From: Chamaesiphon sp. GL140_3_metabinner_129_sub
GTDB lineage: Bacteria; Cyanobacteriota; Cyanobacteriia; Cyanobacteriales; Chamaesiphonaceae
NCBI GenBank assembly: GCA_025358725.1
Contig: JANYIT010000253.1
Span: forward strand, 1 to 33,731
Reading direction: 5' to 3'
DNA: 33,731 bases
Position numbers and translations under genes: made by a program. The notes beneath the pieces are model-generated. The model did not search any database. It was not told the origin of the DNA and saw only the letters and a program-made list of their open reading frames with translations. Numbering within the stretch: the first letter of the stretch is position 1; each line of letters opens with the position of its first letter. Shown piece by piece: positions 1-8,389 of the stretch.

Positions 1-213
1 CTAAAACACTGCCAAAAATATTTAGAAGAAATCCGCGCTGATATCATTTACACATATCCAAAATCTTCAGGGAAAGAATCTAAGCAGTTGGAAGTAGCTA
101 TTGAAAAGATTAAACTCGCTCAAACATCTCTGCATGGCAGATTGTCCGCCGAATATGCTGAGAAAGATGATGAGGAATTATTACCCGTTTACTTGGGAAG
201 GTTAAACCCGTAA
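1..213 (+). CDS. C-terminal fragment of an unknown protein (5' end outside window)
   Basis: Frame 1 is open from the first base to a TAA at 211-213, giving 70 residues ending in VYLGRLNP. It is rich in Lys and Glu and has no in-frame ATG, so the start lies outside the window. I recognise no family. It is convergent with the polymerase gene at 408, and a bidirectional hairpin at 237-272 sits between them. It may belong to the same mobile element or to its left flank. The short length and the lack of motif leave some chance that it is not coding. Confidence 0.5.
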   Translation, partial: LKHCQKYLEEIRADIIYTYPKSSGKESKQLEVAIEKIKLAQTSLHGRLSAEYAEKDDEELLPVYLGRLNP

Positions 214-407: not shown

Positions 408-2429
408 TTAAGAGAGTAACGAATGATTGATAACATCCCGCACGTTTCCGGTGGTTAGGTCAAGTTTTAATTGGTGTTTATTGCCGATTGTGTGAGTTTC
501 CTCAATACCAAGAATCGATCGATAAACCTCATCGAGTTCTGTCACATAATATTCAGACCAATATTCACCGCTGTTAGTTTCTACTGGTATCGATTTTAAG
601 GGTTTACCCGTTTTAGAGTGGTATCGATCGAACCGCTTATACCAATAACTAACCCGTTCCCCTGCCTTACCGATTCCCAACTCAACTAGATTCTTTTCAT
701 TGGTGGATATTTTGCGGGTGATGGTGAGATCTTTAACTGAGATATCACCACTAGTTAAGAGCGATCTAACTTCCTGGTAGTAAGCCTTAGCCGCTTCTAT
801 TCCTTGTGTGAAATATCGCTTAATGAACTTGATCGGGAAGTCATTCTGAAGCGGGTATCGATTTCGCTTCCTGAATAAACCCTTAACGCTGGTCTTGCCC
901 TCTGGACTGACTAAAACGTAACTCTTAGCCTTTGGAGCGTATAACCCGCAATGTTTAAGTTCGATTTCGATTTCGATGCCATCTGGTAGAGCATCAGCCA
1001 CAGCCTTAGAGACAGTCTCAGGATCGTTATGGCTGAAGAAAATACCATCAGTATCGATCTCGATCGTAATACCGCCGCAACTTTCGACTACTGAAACCAT
1101 CAAGTCTAGAATCTTTCTCCCATAAGCCGTAACCAGTGCAGCCGCTTCATAGTCATTGAAAGTATAGTAACCAGTACCAAAGAATCCATAGCTACCATTT
1201 ATCAAGACTTTGAGGGCTTTCTCTTGGAAGCTTGCGGACTTGTCACCAGACTTACCTAAAGCTTTCAGTCTGAGTCTTTCCGCTCTCATGTAGTCCAATA
1301 CCCCTAGAAAGCGATTCTCGGTGTCTTTCCGGCTACAGATGCCATATCTAAGCATGATGCTGGGATAGAGGCTAGAAACGTCTATTTTAGCAACGTTAGA
1401 GTGTAAACCAAGTCTGAGTAGTTCGACAGTTCCACCATCAAACCCCGAACGACCATCAGCGTTGGGGTGTAGTCTTGGTAGTAATTTCTCATGAATCTTT
1501 TGGGCTTTGAGCGCGGGGGAAGCGATCGCTATCGTTTGGAAGTTCAGATTAGGCACATAGTTCATCTGATAGTAGACAACTGGTAGCAGAAAATTAGCTA
1601 ATAGTTGAGTGTCGTCTAAGTCGAACTCTAGATAGTCCTGAATCGTCGCTAAGTCTCCAGTCTCCCAACATTCTCTAATCCTTTCTACCGACAGCTCTAA
1701 CCGTCTGTCTTCTCTCAGACCCAAGGCGATAACACTATTCTTCAAACCGTAGCTAGTCAGTTTAGCGGCGGCTTTATCCCAGATAGCGATCTGTTGATAT
1801 GTGTCGAGAATATCGGTTCCTCTCCAATATACGGGCGTGAATTCGATTGGTTGACCATTCACACTACTAGATGTGATTCTGGTGGTTTTAGATGCCTTGG
1901 TGAAAGGATGAGAGATTTTATTAATTCGGCATCTGGTAACGATGAAGGGGACATCGAAGTTAATTAGGTTGTGACCGACGAGACATTCTGGTTTGTTGGC
2001 TTTCAGGTAGTCGATCGTTTTAGTTAGAGTCACTTTCTCCTCAGGGTCGGTAATGATGACCTTCTCACCTGTTTGAGACATTACCCCCACCATCAACACT
2101 CGATCAATAGTCGGGTCTAAACCCGTTGTCTCGATGTCGATGTAGAGCTTAGTCAGTTCTTCATAAGGTTTAACGCTGGTGTTCGGTTCCCATGATGGCG
2201 TAGTAACAAAGGGTCGGTAGTCCAGTGATAACCGATCTAGATCGACTTCTATCCGTCCTGACTTGTGGATTACTGCATCTCTGGGATTTGTGATGAGAGA
2301 TGTGATGTTAACCAGTCTAATCCCCACATTTGTCATGATTCCGACACTATTGCCATCTACTGACATTACCGTCGCTCTGGTGCCCTTCTTGCTATAAACA
2401 GTTGACCCGATCTTAATTCCATTCATCAT
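408..2429 (-). CDS. Family-B DNA polymerase of a mobile element
   Basis: DNA-dependent DNA polymerase with 3'-5' proofreading, 673 residues. Exonuclease motifs: DIETTG at about 98-103, NLINFD at 154-159, YLEFD at 266-270. Polymerase motifs: A, DVSSLYPS at 350-357; B, KVLINGSYG at 407-415; C, DTD at 459-461; plus a KxY-like KSY near 502-504. Only about 50 residues separate motifs A and B, so the large TPR2 insertion of protein-primed polymerases and pipolin piPolB is absent; a primer made by the neighbouring primase is the natural inference. The first ATG at 2429 is preceded by AAGGGG at about 6 nt spacing and overlaps the primase stop by 17 bp, suggesting translational coupling. The motif C segment reads EIDTDGIFF, where many family members have Ser after DTD. 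The family assignment is very strong; the role in element replication is inferred from context. Confidence 0.93.
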   Translation of the reverse strand: MMNGIKIGSTVYSKKGTRATVMSVDGNSVGIMTNVGIRLVNITSLITNPRDAVIHKSGRIEVDLDRLSLDYRPFVTTPSWEPNTSVKPYEELTKLYIDIETTGLDPTIDRVLMVGVMSQTGEKVIITDPEEKVTLTKTIDYLKANKPECLVGHNLINFDVPFIVTRCRINKISHPFTKASKTTRITSSSVNGQPIEFTPVYWRGTDILDTYQQIAIWDKAAAKLTSYGLKNSVIALGLREDRRLELSVERIRECWETGDLATIQDYLEFDLDDTQLLANFLLPVVYYQMNYVPNLNFQTIAIASPALKAQKIHEKLLPRLHPNADGRSGFDGGTVELLRLGLHSNVAKIDVSSLYPSIMLRYGICSRKDTENRFLGVLDYMRAERLRLKALGKSGDKSASFQEKALKVLINGSYGFFGTGYYTFNDYEAAALVTAYGRKILDLMVSVVESCGGITIEIDTDGIFFSHNDPETVSKAVADALPDGIEIEIELKHCGLYAPKAKSYVLVSPEGKTSVKGLFRKRNRYPLQNDFPIKFIKRYFTQGIEAAKAYYQEVRSLLTSGDISVKDLTITRKISTNEKNLVELGIGKAGERVSYWYKRFDRYHSKTGKPLKSIPVETNSGEYWSEYYVTELDEVYRSILGIEETHTIGNKHQLKLDLTTGNVRDVINHSLLS

Positions 2430-5325
2430 CTATTTCCCCTTGTATTGCTGCAAATTCTTCGGCTGATGCGATCGTGAACAGTTCTGGATGTCCGCCGATG
2501 AGATTTTTATCTTTATCCAAACCAGATATGTAATTCTCTTTGACCTCAGTTATAACTACAATGCTGTTCCCTGTTTTGACATAATCTCCAATTTTCAAAA
2601 TATTTTTATTAGGAAAAGTAGTCAAAGTAGTCACAACATCGCTAGAATCTTGACTAGATATGGTGTTGATACTGTGACTACCAGTAGTCACAGATTTTAG
2701 AGATGAATCGCTGCAATGACCGTTTACCACTGGTTCGGAGTTGTGACTACTTTCATGACCATTAGTAGTCACAGATTCTAGTGGCTCATCAGAAATACCC
2801 TTGTCAATCGATTCAGGGAAACTGTGACTACTTTCATGACTCTGAGTAGTCACAACATTCAAACCCTTATCCAGTCCCGTTCGAGCTTTTTCATTTTGAG
2901 AATCTGTGACTACCGATAGTCGCTCTTGAATAGAATGCTGAGTATAGGTTTCAGTGTTTTTGTGACTACTTTGACTACTTTTCTCTAGAATTTTTATTTG
3001 ATATTTGGAAGATTCGATCGACTCGTCGTTATCGATCGCATGTCCGAGCGATACAACTTTCGACATAAACGCCTTGAGTTCCTCGAAAGATGGTTTCGGT
3101 TTAGTAGTCCACCATGCCCGTGCCTCGTTAGGTTTAACCCATTCCTTCCCAGTGAACTTGTCGATAAACTTCAGGATTCGGGATAGTTCTGGGTCATTGG
3201 TCAAACCAAGTAGCTGATACTGAAGCAACGTTTGGGATAATTCCCATTTAGTCCAAGCGATCGCCAATTCCATCACAGAGACACTAATTAACTGCTCTGG
3301 CTCCTTCTCTCCGATAGCTGCTAGTGTCCGATGAAGGATTAGAGCGTTACGTCCAGCTATACCGTGAAATTTGGAGTAGGTGCCCTTAACTAGTCCTGTC
3401 GAACCAGATAAGGTCTTATCTTCAATCTCGTTATGCCAAGCTTCCCAGAGTGGTTTAGATTCGATCGCTAAACAGTGAATCTGTTCTGGTTGTCTTGATA
3501 ATGCCCTGTAAACCCTGTCTAGTTCTATTCCTAGATCGGCGGGGGTGTCAGTGAATGCTGATGTTTTAAACTGTGGTAGACCGACGAATGAGAATCGATT
3601 CCATAGTCCATCAAACTGACTATCATCGCCGCTCACCATGTTTGTAATAGTTTCAGGCTGAATACCTCCGAGGATCGAGATTGACGTTTGGGGGAGGACA
3701 ATAGTACCCGATGTTTTTCGATTATTTTTTACACCGTTGCCATTCCAAATTGTCAGCCACTGCTGGCGATCGCTACCCTTCCCGCCGCGATACATATCCA
3801 GCGATTTATAGAACTGTGCCAATTCATCCAGCATCAACATACAACCGTCATTGGGGTGGTGTTGGATGGAGTCTACTAGAGCTTCGATGGTGAAGTTGGA
3901 GAAATATAGATCGAGCATTGGTGTAGGTGCCTTTGGTTCCTCACCTCTGTCCGCTGGTTTAGTATTTTTCCAGTTGGTAAACTCGGCATCATAGTCGAGT
4001 TTTTTCTCTTTGTATTCGTCGTATAACTCTATCTGCTGACTGCTAAGGGGTTCGGTTAAGAGACTCAATACAGGGCTTTTCTTACTGCCAGTGTCGCCAA
4101 CTAGTCCACACCACCGGATAGCTGGTACTTTGAAATTAGTACCAGGGCTAATCATTAGTTTGGTACGGGAATCGATTCGACTTCCCAGAATCGGCAGTAG
4201 ACAGAAGTTCAATATCTCTACTGGGATGTTGAAGTTACCCGCCGCGATCGATAGTAAGTTTCCCAACTCACCACCAAACAAAATAGGAGCTTTCCCATTC
4301 TTAAGATTCAAAGATTCGTTAATGCTGTGGCTTAATTCAGCGTCTACCGATACCGATTCAAATCGATGACCAGCCGCAATAGCAAGGGTCTTAGCCTCGT
4401 TATAAACCATCGAAGGGTTACATCCAGAATGGCAGATAAAACCACCTGTCTGAGAGTCAATATGAAGGCTGTCTGATGATTCCCCGTTGTGAGCTGGACA
4501 CTTCGCTGTTATCCATCCCTTCCGACCGTCTGGGTTGTATCCTTCTAAATACTGAGCGAACGAACGCATATCTCGATCGTCAGCATCGGATTCGGTAATC
4601 TCTAGCGAATCTTTACACCATCGATCTACAGCTAGATCTGGCAAGGTTATATCGAATTCTTTTATTCTGTAGATGGTACTATGATTCAGTTGTAGCAACT
4701 GACACTCGACTCGATCGAAGTCATTAATCTCATGATTCCAAGCTACATGATCGAATCCTGGCAGTCTCATTAATTGGGCTGGATCGGCTAGAGACTGGTC
4801 ATCACAGTTCGAGTACTGCAACCATCGTCTCTGGTATGTTGGCAGCTCATCGATCTGGATATTCTGGGATTCCCAATAAGCATGTAGTGATTTCTTGGTC
4901 TTAACTACCGCTGTGGGTTTGCCAAACTCTTGAGTAATCCTGTCAATTTCTACTTGCTGCTCATCGAATGAAGCTCGATCTGATTCATGAAACAAACAAG
5001 TTCCATGCGTGATGTCTGTATTCTTCTCACCACCATGATGAACCACGAAGTAGATACCATAGCCTTGCTTATTCAGCCCTTGCAGGTGTCCCCAGCCGTC
5101 GGTAAACGGTTTATGGTCTTTTCCATAACGACGGTACAATTCACCCGTCTGTAAGTCGATATAGCCGTTAACTGTCGATTTATTGACCTTGCTGCTCTTC
5201 TTGTCGATATAGGTCATATCCCGTGCTTCTAATTCTGGCAGCGGGGTATTTTTTGGAGCTAGACAACGAATGTAAACGCGATCATCATGCCCGATCGCTT
5301 TGAGAAACTCGATAGATGTTTTCAT
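2413..5325 (-). CDS. Fused AEP (RepB-like) primase and DUF3987 ATPase/helicase-like protein
   Basis: A 970-residue replication protein. The N-terminal part (about 85-195) looks like a RepB-type archaeo-eukaryotic primase: an acidic motif LFHESD at 111-116, SLH at 146-148 and the typical ADPAQLMRLPG at 180-190. A CHC2-like zinc knuckle follows (C276, H279, C298, C302). The DUF3987 ATPase has a Walker A segment GDTGSKKS at 410-417 and Walker B-like MLMLDELAQFY further on. The C-terminal quarter (about 781-905) is a low-complexity linker with about 27-residue repeats containing VTTxxHESSH, followed by a short conserved-looking end domain. It is immediately upstream of, and overlaps, the family-B polymerase gene. 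ATG at 5325 has no clear Shine-Dalgarno, and a long hairpin lies just upstream. It probably primes and unwinds DNA for the polymerase. Family calls come from motifs read by eye. Confidence 0.88.
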   Translation of the reverse strand: MKTSIEFLKAIGHDDRVYIRCLAPKNTPLPELEARDMTYIDKKSSKVNKSTVNGYIDLQTGELYRRYGKDHKPFTDGWGHLQGLNKQGYGIYFVVHHGGEKNTDITHGTCLFHESDRASFDEQQVEIDRITQEFGKPTAVVKTKKSLHAYWESQNIQIDELPTYQRRWLQYSNCDDQSLADPAQLMRLPGFDHVAWNHEINDFDRVECQLLQLNHSTIYRIKEFDITLPDLAVDRWCKDSLEITESDADDRDMRSFAQYLEGYNPDGRKGWITAKCPAHNGESSDSLHIDSQTGGFICHSGCNPSMVYNEAKTLAIAAGHRFESVSVDAELSHSINESLNLKNGKAPILFGGELGNLLSIAAGNFNIPVEILNFCLLPILGSRIDSRTKLMISPGTNFKVPAIRWCGLVGDTGSKKSPVLSLLTEPLSSQQIELYDEYKEKKLDYDAEFTNWKNTKPADRGEEPKAPTPMLDLYFSNFTIEALVDSIQHHPNDGCMLMLDELAQFYKSLDMYRGGKGSDRQQWLTIWNGNGVKNNRKTSGTIVLPQTSISILGGIQPETITNMVSGDDSQFDGLWNRFSFVGLPQFKTSAFTDTPADLGIELDRVYRALSRQPEQIHCLAIESKPLWEAWHNEIEDKTLSGSTGLVKGTYSKFHGIAGRNALILHRTLAAIGEKEPEQLISVSVMELAIAWTKWELSQTLLQYQLLGLTNDPELSRILKFIDKFTGKEWVKPNEARAWWTTKPKPSFEELKAFMSKVVSLGHAIDNDESIESSKYQIKILEKSSQSSHKNTETYTQHSIQERLSVVTDSQNEKARTGLDKGLNVVTTQSHESSHSFPESIDKGISDEPLESVTTNGHESSHNSEPVVNGHCSDSSLKSVTTGSHSINTISSQDSSDVVTTLTTFPNKNILKIGDYVKTGNSIVVITEVKENYISGLDKDKNLIGGHPELFTIASAEEFAAIQGEIDDEWN
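2613..2983. repeat. Nested palindromic repeat array inside the primase gene
   Basis: Nine exact copies of the 9-mer TGTGACTAC/GTAGTCACA. The GTAGTCACA orientation starts at 2627, 2684, 2765 and 2846; TGTGACTAC starts at 2673, 2742, 2823, 2905 and 2961. They pair as palindromes: arms of 10 bp with 2-bp spacing at 2672-2693, and 9-bp arms with exactly 14-bp spacing at 2742-2773 and 2823-2854. The array is closed by a perfect 24-bp inverted repeat, 2613-2636 against 2960-2983. Unit spacing is mostly 81 bp, which keeps the reading frame. This could be an iteron origin inside a replication gene (as in lambda O), a protein-binding array or a recombination site. Confidence 0.85.
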
Positions 5326-5333
5326 GTTATAAT
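5325..5333 (+). promoter_or_regulatory. Candidate extended -10 promoter, rightward
   Basis: TGTTATAAT fits the extended -10 consensus (TGnTATAAT). It overlaps the primase start codon on the other strand and points toward the hairpin and terminator at 5337-5488. No good -35 is present at 17 bp. It is a candidate only. Confidence 0.3.
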
Positions 5334-5336
5334 TTG

Positions 5337-5390
5337 CACATAAAAAGAGCTAAAACGTTATAGCAACAACTGTCCAGCTCTTTTTATGTG
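5337..5390. repeat. Perfect 15-bp inverted repeat upstream of the primase gene
   Basis: CACATAAAAAGAGCT (5337-5351) and its exact complement (5376-5390) are separated by 24 nt. It begins 11 bp upstream of the primase ATG. In the leftward mRNA it would fold just before the start codon and could act as an attenuator or translation control element. As DNA it could be an operator or replication site. Confidence 0.7.
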
Positions 5391-5488
5391 GCTACAGTCA
5401 GGGAAACTACAACGATTTGGATAGTGGATCTCTGAAGAGTGATTTTTTCTTGGTCGCTCGTGGGCTTTCTCCCAGGGAGCGATTTTTT
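5340..5488 (+). ncRNA. Candidate antisense RNA over the primase leader
   Basis: A rightward transcript starting after the extended -10 at 5325-5333 would begin in the 5337-5390 hairpin and end at the strong intrinsic terminator 5454-5488, making about 150 nt. It would be fully complementary to the 5' leader of the primase mRNA, like antisense copy-number regulators of plasmids. There is no ORF in it. The call is inferred from promoter, hairpin and terminator arrangement; no known RNA family was recognised. Confidence 0.3.
5454..5488 (+). terminator. Intrinsic terminator, rightward
   Basis: TCGCTC (5454-5459) pairs with GAGCGA (5477-5482), with an inner GGG/CCC pairing, and is followed by six T (5483-5488). 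No annotated rightward gene precedes it, which is the main reason to suspect a small rightward RNA here. Confidence 0.65.
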
Positions 5489-5598
5489 GTTGCCTTTGCA
5501 GCTTGGGGTAGAGTAGCAAGTCTCGTTAATATCGAAATTTATCGGCTCTCAGCAACGAAAAACACGAGATGAGATTGATTAGTGATTTTTAGATCCTC

Positions 5599-5910
5599 CT
5601 ACAATGATATTTTTTTGTGGTTTGCCGCCGTGTGTTTATACTCATCAGAACTCGGTAGACTGGCTAAATATTTCTCGATCGCCCTTTGGTGAGCCGGAGA
5701 GTTGCCATTGACTATGTAGTCTCGAACCAGATCCTTCACCCAAACGATATTGGGAGAGTCTGGCAGATTATGCCAATAAATCCCACGGGTCAGGAGTTCA
5801 TTAACCCTCCAGTTCTTGAGAGTATCAGTTGATACTCCGGCACAAAGGCACATTTCACGGGTCGGGACACATTCCCATGTCAACAAAGGACGCTTGATTC
5901 TGTGTGTCAT
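5599..5910 (-). CDS. Excisionase-like helix-turn-helix protein
   Basis: Small DNA-binding protein, 103 residues from the ATG at 5910 (start MTHRIKRPLLTW). The core CAGVSTDTLKNWR looks like a helix-turn-helix recognition unit, followed by GIYWHNLPDSPNIVWVKDL, a pattern typical of small proteins next to cyanobacterial integrases. An upstream in-frame ATG at 5982 would add 24 residues rich in Pro and Ser; I prefer the internal start because the added part looks non-coding. It lies between the zinc-cluster gene and the primase leader in the same direction as the integrase, which suits a recombination directionality factor or element regulator. That function is inferred. Confidence 0.7.
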   Translation of the reverse strand: MTHRIKRPLLTWECVPTREMCLCAGVSTDTLKNWRVNELLTRGIYWHNLPDSPNIVWVKDLVRDYIVNGNSPAHQRAIEKYLASLPSSDEYKHTAANHKKISL

Positions 5911-6049
5911 TTTGCAGTTGGTTGGTAGCGTTGGGATAGGAGAGATAGGCACTAGACAGGGTGGAAAAGAGCTTATCTCCATTAACTCGCGGAAGCTGCG
6001 AAAAGTCTGTGGAGTTCTGCGGCTAATTTCAAGATCTGCCAGCAGAGAT

Positions 6050-7027
6050 CTAGGTCTTTCCTCTGGTTTTTATGCTCAGACCAAGACTGTCGGGGGACTT
6101 CCCTTGTCTTTCCAAAGCTGTTATCCAGTTTTTGTGATTTTGCTTGCATTTCTTATCGGTACAATAGCGAGAATAGTTATTAGCCTTCCCTTTCGGCAAT
6201 TCATAGAACTTCCCGCAGAACCAACATTGACAAAGCTTGAAATCACCATAAAATATCGGACTAAGTTTGTTACTATCTTTTGCAGCTCTTGTTCTATCAT
6301 TTTTGTGTTTAGTACTTTCCGCAAAAGTAGCTTCACTCTCTTTCCCAAGTAGTTGAATCGATTCCCTGCCTTCCTCTGACAGCCAGAAATGATAGAGCAT
6401 TCCTGCTGTGCTTTTATCAGCAAATTCGTACCAAGCAAACCTTGATTTCAATACATTCTGTTTGTAATTTTTGATTTTATCTTCGATTCCTGTAATCAAA
6501 TCTAGCTCTTTATCTAATTTCTCATAACCACTTTTAACTAATCCCTTACCCTCGCGAATTGATTCCCATTGATCGGCTATGTGTCTGGACATTGGTGGTA
6601 AAGAACTACGATCAAAAGGGATAGGACACATCATTTCAAAATATAGCTTGATTAGTAAATAGAACTCATAATATTCATAAATCTGTGAATTTTGCGAGAA
6701 AAATTTTCTTAGTAATTCCCCATGCGTTATCAATCCATGTGAAGGATTTTGGTAATGTAGTAAAATCTTTTGCACAGCATAATTACTATGTCTTTGCAAG
6801 ACACGAGTAGATTCTACATCGAGATTTTCTGGTGGAGTGATGTATTTTTCTAATAGATATTCGGGTGGTATTCCTCTATGCCATGGATAAAGCAGCTCCA
6901 TTAGAGCTGACTGATCTGGAAAAATGGTAATCTTTTTGTCTTGGTAATCGTCGCTAATGAGGGATGGGTCAAAAACAAAAAGATTCCAGCCATTTTCTGA
7001 TATTAGCTTGGGGATGAAACGAGTCAT
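6050..7027 (-). CDS. Unknown element protein with C-terminal cysteine cluster
   Basis: 325 residues from ATG 7027 (a TTG at 7039 in frame would add four residues). No family recognised. The N-terminal 200 residues are predicted helical and rich in aromatic residues, with no transmembrane segment. The C-terminal part carries CQCWFCGKFYELPKG and then YCTDKKCKQNH, a C-x2-C ... C-x4-C-x2-H arrangement that could bind zinc as a treble-clef or ribbon. It sits between integrase and excisionase-like genes and is co-oriented with them. DNA binding is a reasonable guess from the cysteine cluster, not more. Confidence 0.72.
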   Translation of the reverse strand: MTRFIPKLISENGWNLFVFDPSLISDDYQDKKITIFPDQSALMELLYPWHRGIPPEYLLEKYITPPENLDVESTRVLQRHSNYAVQKILLHYQNPSHGLITHGELLRKFFSQNSQIYEYYEFYLLIKLYFEMMCPIPFDRSSLPPMSRHIADQWESIREGKGLVKSGYEKLDKELDLITGIEDKIKNYKQNVLKSRFAWYEFADKSTAGMLYHFWLSEEGRESIQLLGKESEATFAESTKHKNDRTRAAKDSNKLSPIFYGDFKLCQCWFCGKFYELPKGKANNYSRYCTDKKCKQNHKNWITALERQGKSPDSLGLSIKTRGKT

Positions 7028-7093
7028 AATGATAGTCAAGAAATTATAGTTTTTTCCTAGCGTTAATCGACTTAATTAACTCTGAGTATTTTA

Positions 7094-8176
7094 TTATTCA
7101 AACGACTTGAGGACGCTATCCTGTTGAATAGAGTCACCATAGTATTTGTGCATTGTATGAGCGTCATGACCTGCTGCTGCTGCCACTTCGATGTAATTGG
7201 CACCACTAAGTAATGAATGCCTAATTGATGTCTTCCTGGTGGTGTAGGGCTTGCGATAAGCTACTCCCACATCTGCTAATACTTTTCCCCACAACCGCCT
7301 AAAATTACCGTTATCGATGGGTAAACCTTCGCGGCTAGTGAATACTAGTTCATCATCCGAGACTGGTTTGAGGCGTTCTTGTCTGGTACTGAGCATTGAA
7401 GCGATCGAATGGTCTAAAGGCACAGTCCGCCCCTTTTTAGTCTTGTTGCTAGAGAACCAGATCGAACCAAAATCAGCCGATATATGTTTCCACTTCAGAT
7501 CTCGAACTTCCTGCGGTCTGGTCGCCATCGACAGCCGAAACCGAACGTAATCGAGATAGTTGGCGTAGTAGGGACTAGCGCGGAAGCCATCGAGAATTTT
7601 CTTGACTTCATCCTGACTGAATGCGGGGACGGGTTGCACAGGGATAGACTTAAACCGCTCTGCTATCCCCTCCCACGGGTTTAAATCGGGTAATTGAAAC
7701 TTATCCCGTCCCCAATCCCACGCGGCTTTAAGGAGCCATATTCGCTGTTTGGCGGTATCTGGCTTAATTTTTCGGCATACCAGCACAAATCCATCGATCG
7801 TCTTTCGATCGATATCAGCCGCAGGGATGTTCAGATGCTTCTCTAGCATCGTCAACAGATACTTATAGCGAGTATCGATCGAGGCTTTGCTCAATCCTCC
7901 ATGCTTCTGCTGGTACTTAGTGAAACGATCTAATAACTCGACAGTGGTTATCTCGCTAGCATTCTTCCCGATGGTCTTGGGTCGGTATTTAACCAGAGTC
8001 GAATCGTAGTAACCATGTTTGGTATCATTCTCTATTCGATCTTTGATTGTGGATGCAAAAGCTCTGCCAGTCGTTGAGTCCTCCACACCTAAAGATAAAT
8101 TCTTCCGCCTGCCCGTCTCTGGACAAGTCCAGCGCAACCGTAATTTATGCTGATGCTTCTCGATCGTGATTTTCAT
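7094..8176 (-). CDS. Tyrosine recombinase (site-specific integrase)
   Basis: 360 residues from ATG 8176 (MKITIEKHQHKLRLRW). An in-frame ATG at 8239 would add 21 residues encoded by short repeats, so I prefer 8176. Catalytic features: Arg in MATRPQEVRDL, Lys in NKTKKGRTVPL, the box II Arg in YTTRKTSIRHSL, His in AAAAGHDAHT and the nucleophile Tyr in MHKYYGD. Box II has Tyr where the canonical HxxR His is expected and Lys after the Arg, so it is slightly divergent. The N-terminal half holds an arm-type and a core-binding SAM-like domain (about 70-170). The gene ends with the tRNA-Pro 3' end about 140 bp upstream of its start, the usual arrangement for integration into a tRNA gene. Confidence 0.94.
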   Translation of the reverse strand: MKITIEKHQHKLRLRWTCPETGRRKNLSLGVEDSTTGRAFASTIKDRIENDTKHGYYDSTLVKYRPKTIGKNASEITTVELLDRFTKYQQKHGGLSKASIDTRYKYLLTMLEKHLNIPAADIDRKTIDGFVLVCRKIKPDTAKQRIWLLKAAWDWGRDKFQLPDLNPWEGIAERFKSIPVQPVPAFSQDEVKKILDGFRASPYYANYLDYVRFRLSMATRPQEVRDLKWKHISADFGSIWFSSNKTKKGRTVPLDHSIASMLSTRQERLKPVSDDELVFTSREGLPIDNGNFRRLWGKVLADVGVAYRKPYTTRKTSIRHSLLSGANYIEVAAAAGHDAHTMHKYYGDSIQQDSVLKSFE

Positions 8177-8220
8177 AGGGGTAAAAATAGGGGTAAAACT
8201 GTCATGTCTAAACACCCCTA
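8177..8220. promoter_or_regulatory. Short repeated boxes upstream of the integrase start
   Basis: AGGGGTAAAA occurs at 8177-8186 and 8189-8198, and the inverted box ACCCCTA at 8214-8220. They lie between integrase start and the tRNA, where arm-type binding sites for integrase or excisionase, or an operator, would be expected. Confidence 0.35.
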
Positions 8221-8315
8221 ACCACCCTTTCATTGTCAATAAGACAACAAAAAAGATTCCAACAAAGTCGCGTAGACCTTGCCGAAACCCTTTTCTAATG
8301 CTGTTTTTCCCCTAG

Positions 8316-8389
8316 TCGGGATGAGAGGATTTGAACCTCCGACCCCTGCTTCCCGAAAGCAGTGCGCTACCAAGCTGCGCTACATCCCG
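8316..8389 (-). tRNA. tRNA-Pro(CGG)
   Basis: Cloverleaf of 74 nt on the minus strand. The acceptor CGGGATG pairs with CATCCCG; anticodon loop is TTCGGGA (anticodon CGG); the T arm contains GTTCAAATC. The CCA end is not encoded. Its 3' end faces the integrase, so it is the probable attachment site of the element to its left. Confidence 0.95.

Follow-up and report, generated by a model that had tools for sequence, protein, structure and literature searches.

A tyrosine integrase gene beside a tRNA-Pro gene, in one run with genes for a primase-helicase and a family-B DNA polymerase (PolB), raises the question of whether this locus is a mobile element that carries its own copying enzymes and, if so, to which kind of element it belongs. 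The window, that is, the whole stretch of DNA analysed, is the entire contig C244 (33,731 bp) of genome G000, which consists of 408 contigs and is 92.6% complete with 5.6% contamination; hence, the element is truncated at base 1. Read from the tRNA, the gene order is integrase, accessory gene, small HTH-like gene, primase-helicase, and PolB, and all five genes lie on the minus strand, in agreement with the co-orientation described in a first-pass annotation of this DNA. The features are as follows.

8315..8389, minus strand: tRNA-Pro(cgg), the integration target, found with ARAGORN, with a 3' half (about 8314-8362) of the element type
7094..8176, minus strand: tyrosine integrase (PF00589 3.2e-16, phrog_1 4.7e-37)
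8176-8186 and 8188-8198, no strand: direct repeats, two copies of the 11-bp TAGGGGTAAAA, at the integrase start; candidate arm sites
6050..7039, minus strand: accessory protein with a Cys-rich tail, an ORF
5599..5982, minus strand: small HTH-like protein, candidate excision factor, an ORF with homologues in relatives
2413..5325, minus strand: primase-helicase (DUF3987 4.6e-41)
2618..2978, no strand: array of the iterated motif GTAGTCA(C), candidate origin, within the primase-helicase gene
408..2429, minus strand: family-B DNA polymerase with 3'-5' exonuclease (PF00136 1.4e-13, PF03104 2e-11)
1..210, plus strand: 3' end of an ORF cut by the contig end, convergent with PolB (best Pfam match 0.016)

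The same annotation had taken position 408 as the left bound of the element; this is simply the end of the PolB gene, and the contig begins at base 1. The ORF at 1..210 would be part of the element only if the element continues leftward. The G+C of the element (0.430 vs 0.448) does not stand out. PADLOC gave only weak exonuclease- and polymerase-type matches and no defence assignment, and no terminase small subunit was found in the sequenced, integrase-proximal part of the element.

The tRNA-Pro(cgg) place was located in all nine genomes of the genus (the labels ndhD, polA, holB, hisB, and nrdR were given by eye). One 3' half of the tRNA gene, with 47-49 bases identical, was common to seven of them (G000 and G002 to G007), and the other, native 3' half was present in G001 and G008. 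In G001, polA directly followed the tRNA and the element was absent. An integrase gene followed the tRNA on one contig of G005, and the native half was displaced on the polA side on another contig (46/47 bases). The integrase after the tRNA in G003 showed 66% identity over 241 residues, and an element-type half (46/49 bases) was displaced before a holB-like gene, again on another contig. G006 carried in tandem an integrase remnant, a second copy of the half, and a second integrase; short remnants were seen at the tRNA in G002 and G008. The two types of 3' half, in seven and two genomes, and the displaced native half in G005 support the proposal of the first-pass annotation that the window's element is integrated in tRNA-Pro.

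The occupants of this place were compared as well. A Prim-Pol protein was encoded there in G005 and a D5/DUF3854 protein in G007, and the sibling element at the same tRNA in G006 encoded a VapE-type primase-helicase (4.3e-67), an SF2 helicase, and Terminase_2 (8.8e-40). In the stretches read, these three occupants had a primase-helicase without PolB. PolB gave no match in the G006 genome and was present in three of the nine genus genomes, namely G000, G003 (broken), and G007 (a 45-residue piece). Because the occupants differ among the nine genomes, tRNA-Pro(cgg) is a hot spot rather than a fixed locus. The idea that the genes form a fixed chromosomal locus with no element at all can practically be dismissed: the missing far end is all that speaks for it, whereas the same tRNA in the nine genomes has different occupants, remnants, or nothing beside it. 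The comparison with relatives thus agreed with the earlier view of a mobile element, the same gene order not being fixed.

As regards the far end, no second tRNA-Pro half was found in the 408-contig genome using native-type and element-type patterns with up to 3 mismatches. Two candidate flanks were rejected: the polA flank of G000 adjoins a hisB-like gene without a tRNA half, and the counterpart in G000 of the holB-like flank of G003 follows an nrdR-like gene, likewise without the half. These arrangements show a rearranged flank in G000. With no second half in G000 and with the polA and holB flanks lying elsewhere, we concluded that the far end of the window's element is missing. The small gene preceding the displaced half in G005 was also tried as a guide to the far end and set aside, its best match in G000 being only 28%.

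Some observations concern neighbouring sites and genomes. A small coiled-coil-like gene (TDTDIQQIKDLI) recurs at L075:3059-3487 and 6608-7036 (G005:C169) and at L076:5911-6348 (G003:C9); it directly precedes a displaced tRNA half in two cases and is perhaps a marker of the far ends of the elements. In G000, a second integrase lies at another tRNA-Pro (ggg) together with a reverse-transcriptase-like ORF and an HTH gene (G000:C223, L031, 4623-5987), and a displaced 3' half of tRNA-Pro (ggg) occurs at 1571-1668 of G000:C204 (L030), where a VirB4-like gene was also recognised by eye. In G003, similar short peptides (such as NAKRATKAV and EREARHQGGR) interrupt several genes (L019:127-1182 and 2134-2556; L076:4400-4636), which suggests a short interspersed repeat inserting into coding sequence.

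The tyrosine integrase beside tRNA-Pro, as annotated earlier, was verified by the PF00589 match and the ARAGORN call listed above. Its ORF (7094-8239) is open from a TTG at 8239, and the ATG at 8176 is the likely start. Repeat pairs resembling TAGGGGTAAAA were seen by eye at the integrase start in several sister elements, and the TAGGGGTAAAA pair may accordingly be read as candidate integrase arm sites. The zinc-cluster protein reported after the integrase was recovered as ORF 6050-7039 with a Cys-rich tail, and gave no family match in Pfam, PHROGs, or NCBIfam. It is 30% identical to the gene adjoining the integrase in G006 at another tRNA-Pro, and it occupies the place of the gene next to the integrase in PICMI elements.

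The small protein (5599-5982) had been labelled excisionase-like. The ORF itself is real, but the label is weak, as no credible HTH match of its own was obtained in a Pfam search. It aligned at 46% with a homologue, L052, whose HTH matches are 3.7e-5 and worse. Homologues were found in G005, G007, G040, G006, G003, and G000:C223; among these, HTH matches were obtained only for the G005 homologue, which matched HTH_17 at just 0.0077. A profile of this family matched no solved structure, and the AlpA domains (PF05930 or PF12728) gave no match in the window's protein, so that neither an AlpA nor a Xis identity was confirmed.

The primase-helicase consists of an AEP domain (residues 81-195), a Cys-rich stretch (about 275-301), DUF3987 (372-700), and a C-terminal linker that bears the repeats described below. 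Residues 81-195 matched the AEP domain of a solved PrimPol structure, PDB 6zp9, at 5e-4, the sole structure match up to E 5; Pfam gave only a weak RepB_primase match (0.02) for the primase part. Together with the DUF3987 match, these results substantiate the earlier description of an AEP primase-DUF3987 fusion.

The PolB gene overlaps the preceding primase-helicase gene by 17 bases. The exonuclease and polymerase motifs are intact and both domain families are matched, which bears out the proofreading PolB of the earlier annotation. Among the 60 of 139 PDB matches listed for a profile of 13 PolB relatives, archaeal replicative PolBs were found, the best at 4.6e-45. A structure model (mean pLDDT 80.8) matched an archaeal PolB structure at 2.6e-31 with a TM-score of 0.64 by query, and the best 50 matches of the model were, by their titles, family-B polymerases of the archaeal type or engineered versions of such enzymes. 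Motif A starts at residue 350, motif B at 407, and motif C at 458. In phi29, the A-B interval holds the TPR1 region and the B-C interval the TPR2 region; in the window's PolB, neither interval is long enough to accommodate such a region. The spacing argument of the first-pass annotation was mistaken in its choice of insertion, since the A-B gap, which it had assigned to TPR2, concerns TPR1.

These properties bear on the possibility that the locus is a pipolin or another element with a self-priming polymerase. In favour of it, a tyrosine recombinase and PolB occur together at a tRNA gene, an arrangement described for pipolins (PMC7385651). However, the match to PF00136 (1.4e-13) is far better than that to PF03175 (0.061), the structure matches are archaeal replicative PolBs, and a primase is encoded next to PolB, which makes this explanation exceedingly improbable. 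Judged by sequence class, from these profile and structure matches, PolB is of the archaeal-type, primed kind and is not pipolin-like, as the earlier annotation had held when it noted that a primase is supplied.

We then considered the repeats in the primase-helicase gene. The window contains nine copies of GTAGTCAC, all within 2627-2969 and in both orientations, where 0.49 was expected; this count was reached by 0 of 100 shuffles. The looser motif GTAGTCA occurs in 11 copies in the gene (2618-2978), again in both orientations. When synonymous codons were swapped, the motif count reached at most 3 in 60 trials. Since the motif runs in both orientations and is abolished by synonymous swaps, a peptide repeat was ruled out as the cause of the DNA repeats in the window. 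It was retained for a different fusion protein in genome G351, which gave 9 copies against a swap maximum of 8.

In the sister elements, the observed count and the swap maximum were 12 and 4 (G003), 18 and 4 (G295), 7 and 3 (G006), 5 and 3 (G007), 5 and 4 (G005), 4 and 3 (G353), and 4 and 3 (G040, in which a codon shuffle likewise gave 4); the excess is thus small in G353, G040, and G005. In this main test the observed sequences were scanned in 20-base steps and the swaps in 40-base steps. The gene is broken in G003, so that the swap frame is wrong in its 3' part and the swap there amounts to a shuffle only. The array lay toward the 3' end of the primase-helicase part in every element compared, and a direct pair 8-9 bases apart was present at or near the array start in seven of eight arrays (G351 aside), being absent in G353. 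Five other genes used as controls showed no repeat excess. Such arrays are not a rule for every primase-helicase gene: among 11 further primase-type ORFs, several of them cut by locus ends, three exceeded their 20 swaps, which were scanned in equal steps. We read the arrays as probable initiator-binding iterons, i.e. an origin.

A regular array, five open genes, and intact PolB motifs would hardly be expected if the locus were a dead remnant, left by an old insertion and now incapable of moving or replicating. Decayed relatives are common, including the remnants in G002 and G008, the broken PolB in G003, the 45-residue piece in G007, and the broken genes in G040; even so, we regard a dead remnant as quite unlikely for the window.

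The same gene order as in the window was found beside tRNA-Cys in G353 and, as a broken copy, beside tRNA-Gly in G040, a recurrence that makes a chance arrangement improbable. In G353, tRNA-Cys is followed by the integrase, accessory gene, small gene, a Prim-Pol/PriCT_2/DUF3987 gene, PolB, and RusA. The PolB ORF there lacks about 95 N-terminal residues, and no repeat of the tRNA-Cys was found up to the contig end, so that the element is not bounded. In G040, which belongs to another family and is 61% complete, tRNA-Gly is followed by the integrase, an HTH gene, the primase-helicase, and PolB; the primase-helicase is split into three ORFs in more than one frame, and PolB is spread over two contigs with stops.

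A bounded relative was obtained from G295, in which a 12,070-bp insert with 16-bp direct repeats splits yjbQ at position 84 of UPF0047. The N-terminal part of yjbQ matched profile positions 1-84 (5.1e-21), and the C-terminal piece matched positions 84-99, weakly when taken alone (0.047), and then reached a stop. The insert contains an integrase, an accessory gene, a 66-aa HTH ORF that is perhaps truncated, a fusion gene, a terminase-small-subunit-like gene, and small genes without assigned function. The fusion is a single protein of 1,543 residues with Prim-Pol, PriCT_2, DUF3987, exonuclease, and PolB domains. The gene after it was assigned through a PHROG match (6.5e-9), and Pfam gave only weak HTH matches. 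No capsid, tail, portal, large-terminase, or transfer family was matched in 11 of the 14 ORFs (at least 60 residues each), which were scanned against at least one library. A separate case is the G351 protein mentioned above (L105:3950-8263), in which a D5/DUF5906 primase-helicase is joined to PolB in 1,437 residues; its locus lacks a tRNA gene and matches none of the integrases compared, and a recombinase, recognised by eye, is located some 4.5 kb away.

Subsequently, the distribution and origin of PolB were examined. PolB matches were found in 9 of 148 relatives, 34 of 388 genomes in the order, and 14 of 388 in the class; G000 itself is included in each count, the samples overlap one another, and fragments make up many of the matches. 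At a threshold of 1e-8, 37 context loci were compared; PolB is absent from L155. An integrase and a primase-helicase of the window kind accompanied PolB in four of the loci (the window, G040, G353, and G295). As an observation on the remaining diversity, at least two of the clamp and clamp-loader genes DnaX, HolA, HolB, and DnaN lay beside PolB in 20 of the 37 loci, constituting a plasmid-type replisome; PolB with its own clamp and clamp-loader genes occurs on cyanobacterial plasmids and some contigs (L020, L021, L023, L108, L122, L123, and others). None of these four clamp and clamp-loader genes was matched in the window at 1e-8. A search of 72,556 plasmid records for the fusion in one piece gave 76 matches, none of which covered 80%, and among 386 genomes of the phylum 59 matched in parts, with no place among those listed spanning the fusion.

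In a tree of 36 PolB rows, the window, G003, G353, and the two G040 pieces formed one clade (99/96) with L156 and L157, and sixteen replisome-type rows formed a separate clade (100/100). Two rows, L141 and L142, bear a replisome label in this tree but have no clamp genes. The PolB of a Gloeothece plasmid (L123), with clamp genes present, fell outside the main plasmid clade. An earlier tree of 27 rows, including Deinococcus and Salinibacter rows left out of the larger one, agreed on the element clade and the main plasmid clade. A plasmid origin of PolB was not favoured by the trees. The PolB of the G295 fusion had a long branch and did not group with the window's clade; on this ground, PolB is probably a module that was captured more than once.

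An integrated plasmid or conjugative element using the plasmid-type PolB replisome would be in keeping with the occurrence of related PolBs, at about 40% identity, on large plasmids of cyanobacteria, which are often conjugative, and the second tRNA-Pro element of G000 may reach the contig with the VirB4-like gene (by eye). However, the PolBs there sit with clamp and clamp-loader genes (20 of 37 loci), which are absent from the window, and most belong to another clade; we consider this origin of the locus very unlikely.

L156 and L157 are contigs from a viral collection with tailed-phage-like genes by eye, and their PolBs are the closest outside the elements (51% and 60% identical). The L157 PolB (825-3728) aligned at 60% over residues 48-411 and has an intein-like insert at motif B. 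Together with the contig stopping before the far end, this kinship leaves room for a prophage or its remnant, in which the integrase and replication genes would be those of a temperate phage with structural genes beyond the contig end. Against this, neither viral contig had a matching integrase or primase-helicase in the stretches examined, the bounded G295 element is only 12 kb with none of the structural families in the ORFs scanned, and the G006 sibling has a small terminase subunit as the only packaging or structural gene among ten proteins scanned. A prophage is, in our estimate, unlikely. When the integrase, PolB, and the N-terminal part of the primase from the window were each used alone to search viral contigs, no relative was returned.

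On balance, we favour the reading that the window holds the integrase-proximal part of a phage-satellite-like element in tRNA-Pro(CGG) of a Chamaesiphon-like cyanobacterium, with the core order of PICMI and PICI elements and a captured replicative PolB. With its own primase-helicase, a proofreading PolB, and a likely origin in the primase gene, it looks like a phage satellite that has acquired a replication enzyme of its own. The gene set, the element-type 3' half, the related elements at the same and other sites, and the iterated motif are properties of the sequence itself; the course of events would be as follows. By analogy, the integrase, with the help of the small HTH-like protein, would carry out recombination at the 3' half of the tRNA gene and release the element in circular form. 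The primase-helicase would bind the iterons in its own gene, open the DNA, and lay primers, and the adjacent proofreading PolB would extend them, so that the element would depend less on a host or helper polymerase. Spread would probably occur by packaging in a helper phage, the basis for this step being terminase small subunits that are seen in relatives only.

Phage satellites are generally thought to depend on host or helper polymerases. Somewhat doubtfully, we also propose that these elements may form a lineage of cyanobacterial satellites with a portable replication unit (an iteron origin in the initiator gene, an AEP primase, a DUF3987 helicase, and a proofreading PolB) that is self-copied without a host or helper polymerase and packaged by a helper. 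The G295 element, with three enzymes in one polypeptide of 1,543 residues beside a terminase small subunit, would in the same reading be the most compact form of this unit, able to copy itself before packaging by a helper. An integrase-linked unit of primase, helicase, and PolB would constitute a short path from a satellite to a self-replicating element and, fused as in one case, a very compact replisome for study, and the array within the primase-helicase gene is a candidate origin open to direct testing. Word searches of the literature available to us returned no paper matching all terms, which does not imply absence from print.

Finally, the element was compared with known systems. PICI elements consist of an integrase, a small regulator, a primase or replication gene, and a gene for packaging, for example that of the terminase small subunit. 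The first three are shared by the window's element, and a terminase small subunit occurs in the relatives G295 and G006; in contrast, the window has PolB in addition and no terminase subunit in the sequenced part. Tycheposons, first described in Prochlorococcus, are portrayed in a second-hand description as tRNA-bordered cargo carriers of 4-200 kb that have a tyrosine recombinase and sit at seven particular tRNA genes (PMC10872708); within the scope of that description, the tRNA site and the tyrosine recombinase are the likeness, and the cargo role, the size range, and the set of tRNA genes are the difference.

The window PolB is 37% identical to that of phage A-1(L) and about 40% identical to those of cyanobacterial plasmids, and belongs to the same broad PolB group. 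For the cyanophages A-1 and N-1, the available part of the source reports no integrase (PMC4916379); there PolB belongs to a lytic phage, and on the plasmids to a replisome, whereas the window PolB is tied to an integrase and a DUF3987 primase. Pipolins, according to the sections available, combine a self-priming PolB and a tyrosine recombinase with att repeats, often in a tRNA gene (PMC7385651). The recombinase and the tRNA gene are shared, whereas the window PolB is archaeal-type by sequence and is supplied with a primase-helicase; of the direct repeats on both sides of PolB, one end is seen in the window and the second copy was not found. Because the type of polymerase differs by sequence, the element was not filed as a pipolin.

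The closest likeness is to PICMI, whose core order is described, in the part of the source available, as an integrase, an accessory gene, a small regulator, and a DUF3987/DUF5906 primase (PMC10803314). There, int, alpA, and the accessory gene are required for excision, and replication is reduced when prim is lost; integration adjacent to fis is optional in one of the published models and mandatory in the other (PMC10803314). The window's element has the same core order, with the integrase (PF00589 3.2e-16) and the DUF3987 primase (4.6e-41) identified by profile, and the small size and direct-repeat bounds recur in the G295 relative. The site is a tRNA or yjbQ in this family in place of fis, and the regulator was not confirmed as AlpA; on these two grounds the element was not filed as a PICMI. 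PICMI elements are induced and packaged by a helper phage, whereas no helper is known for the window's element. The first-pass annotation had proposed a distinct class of element, a designation that we do not retain, given that the core order is that of described phage satellites (as set out in the available part of PMC10803314), that the occupants of the same tRNA in G005, G006, and G007 do without PolB in the stretches read, and that PolB looks captured more than once. What sets the window's element apart from PICMI is the PolB that follows the primase, and is fused to it in G295, in cyanobacterial hosts.
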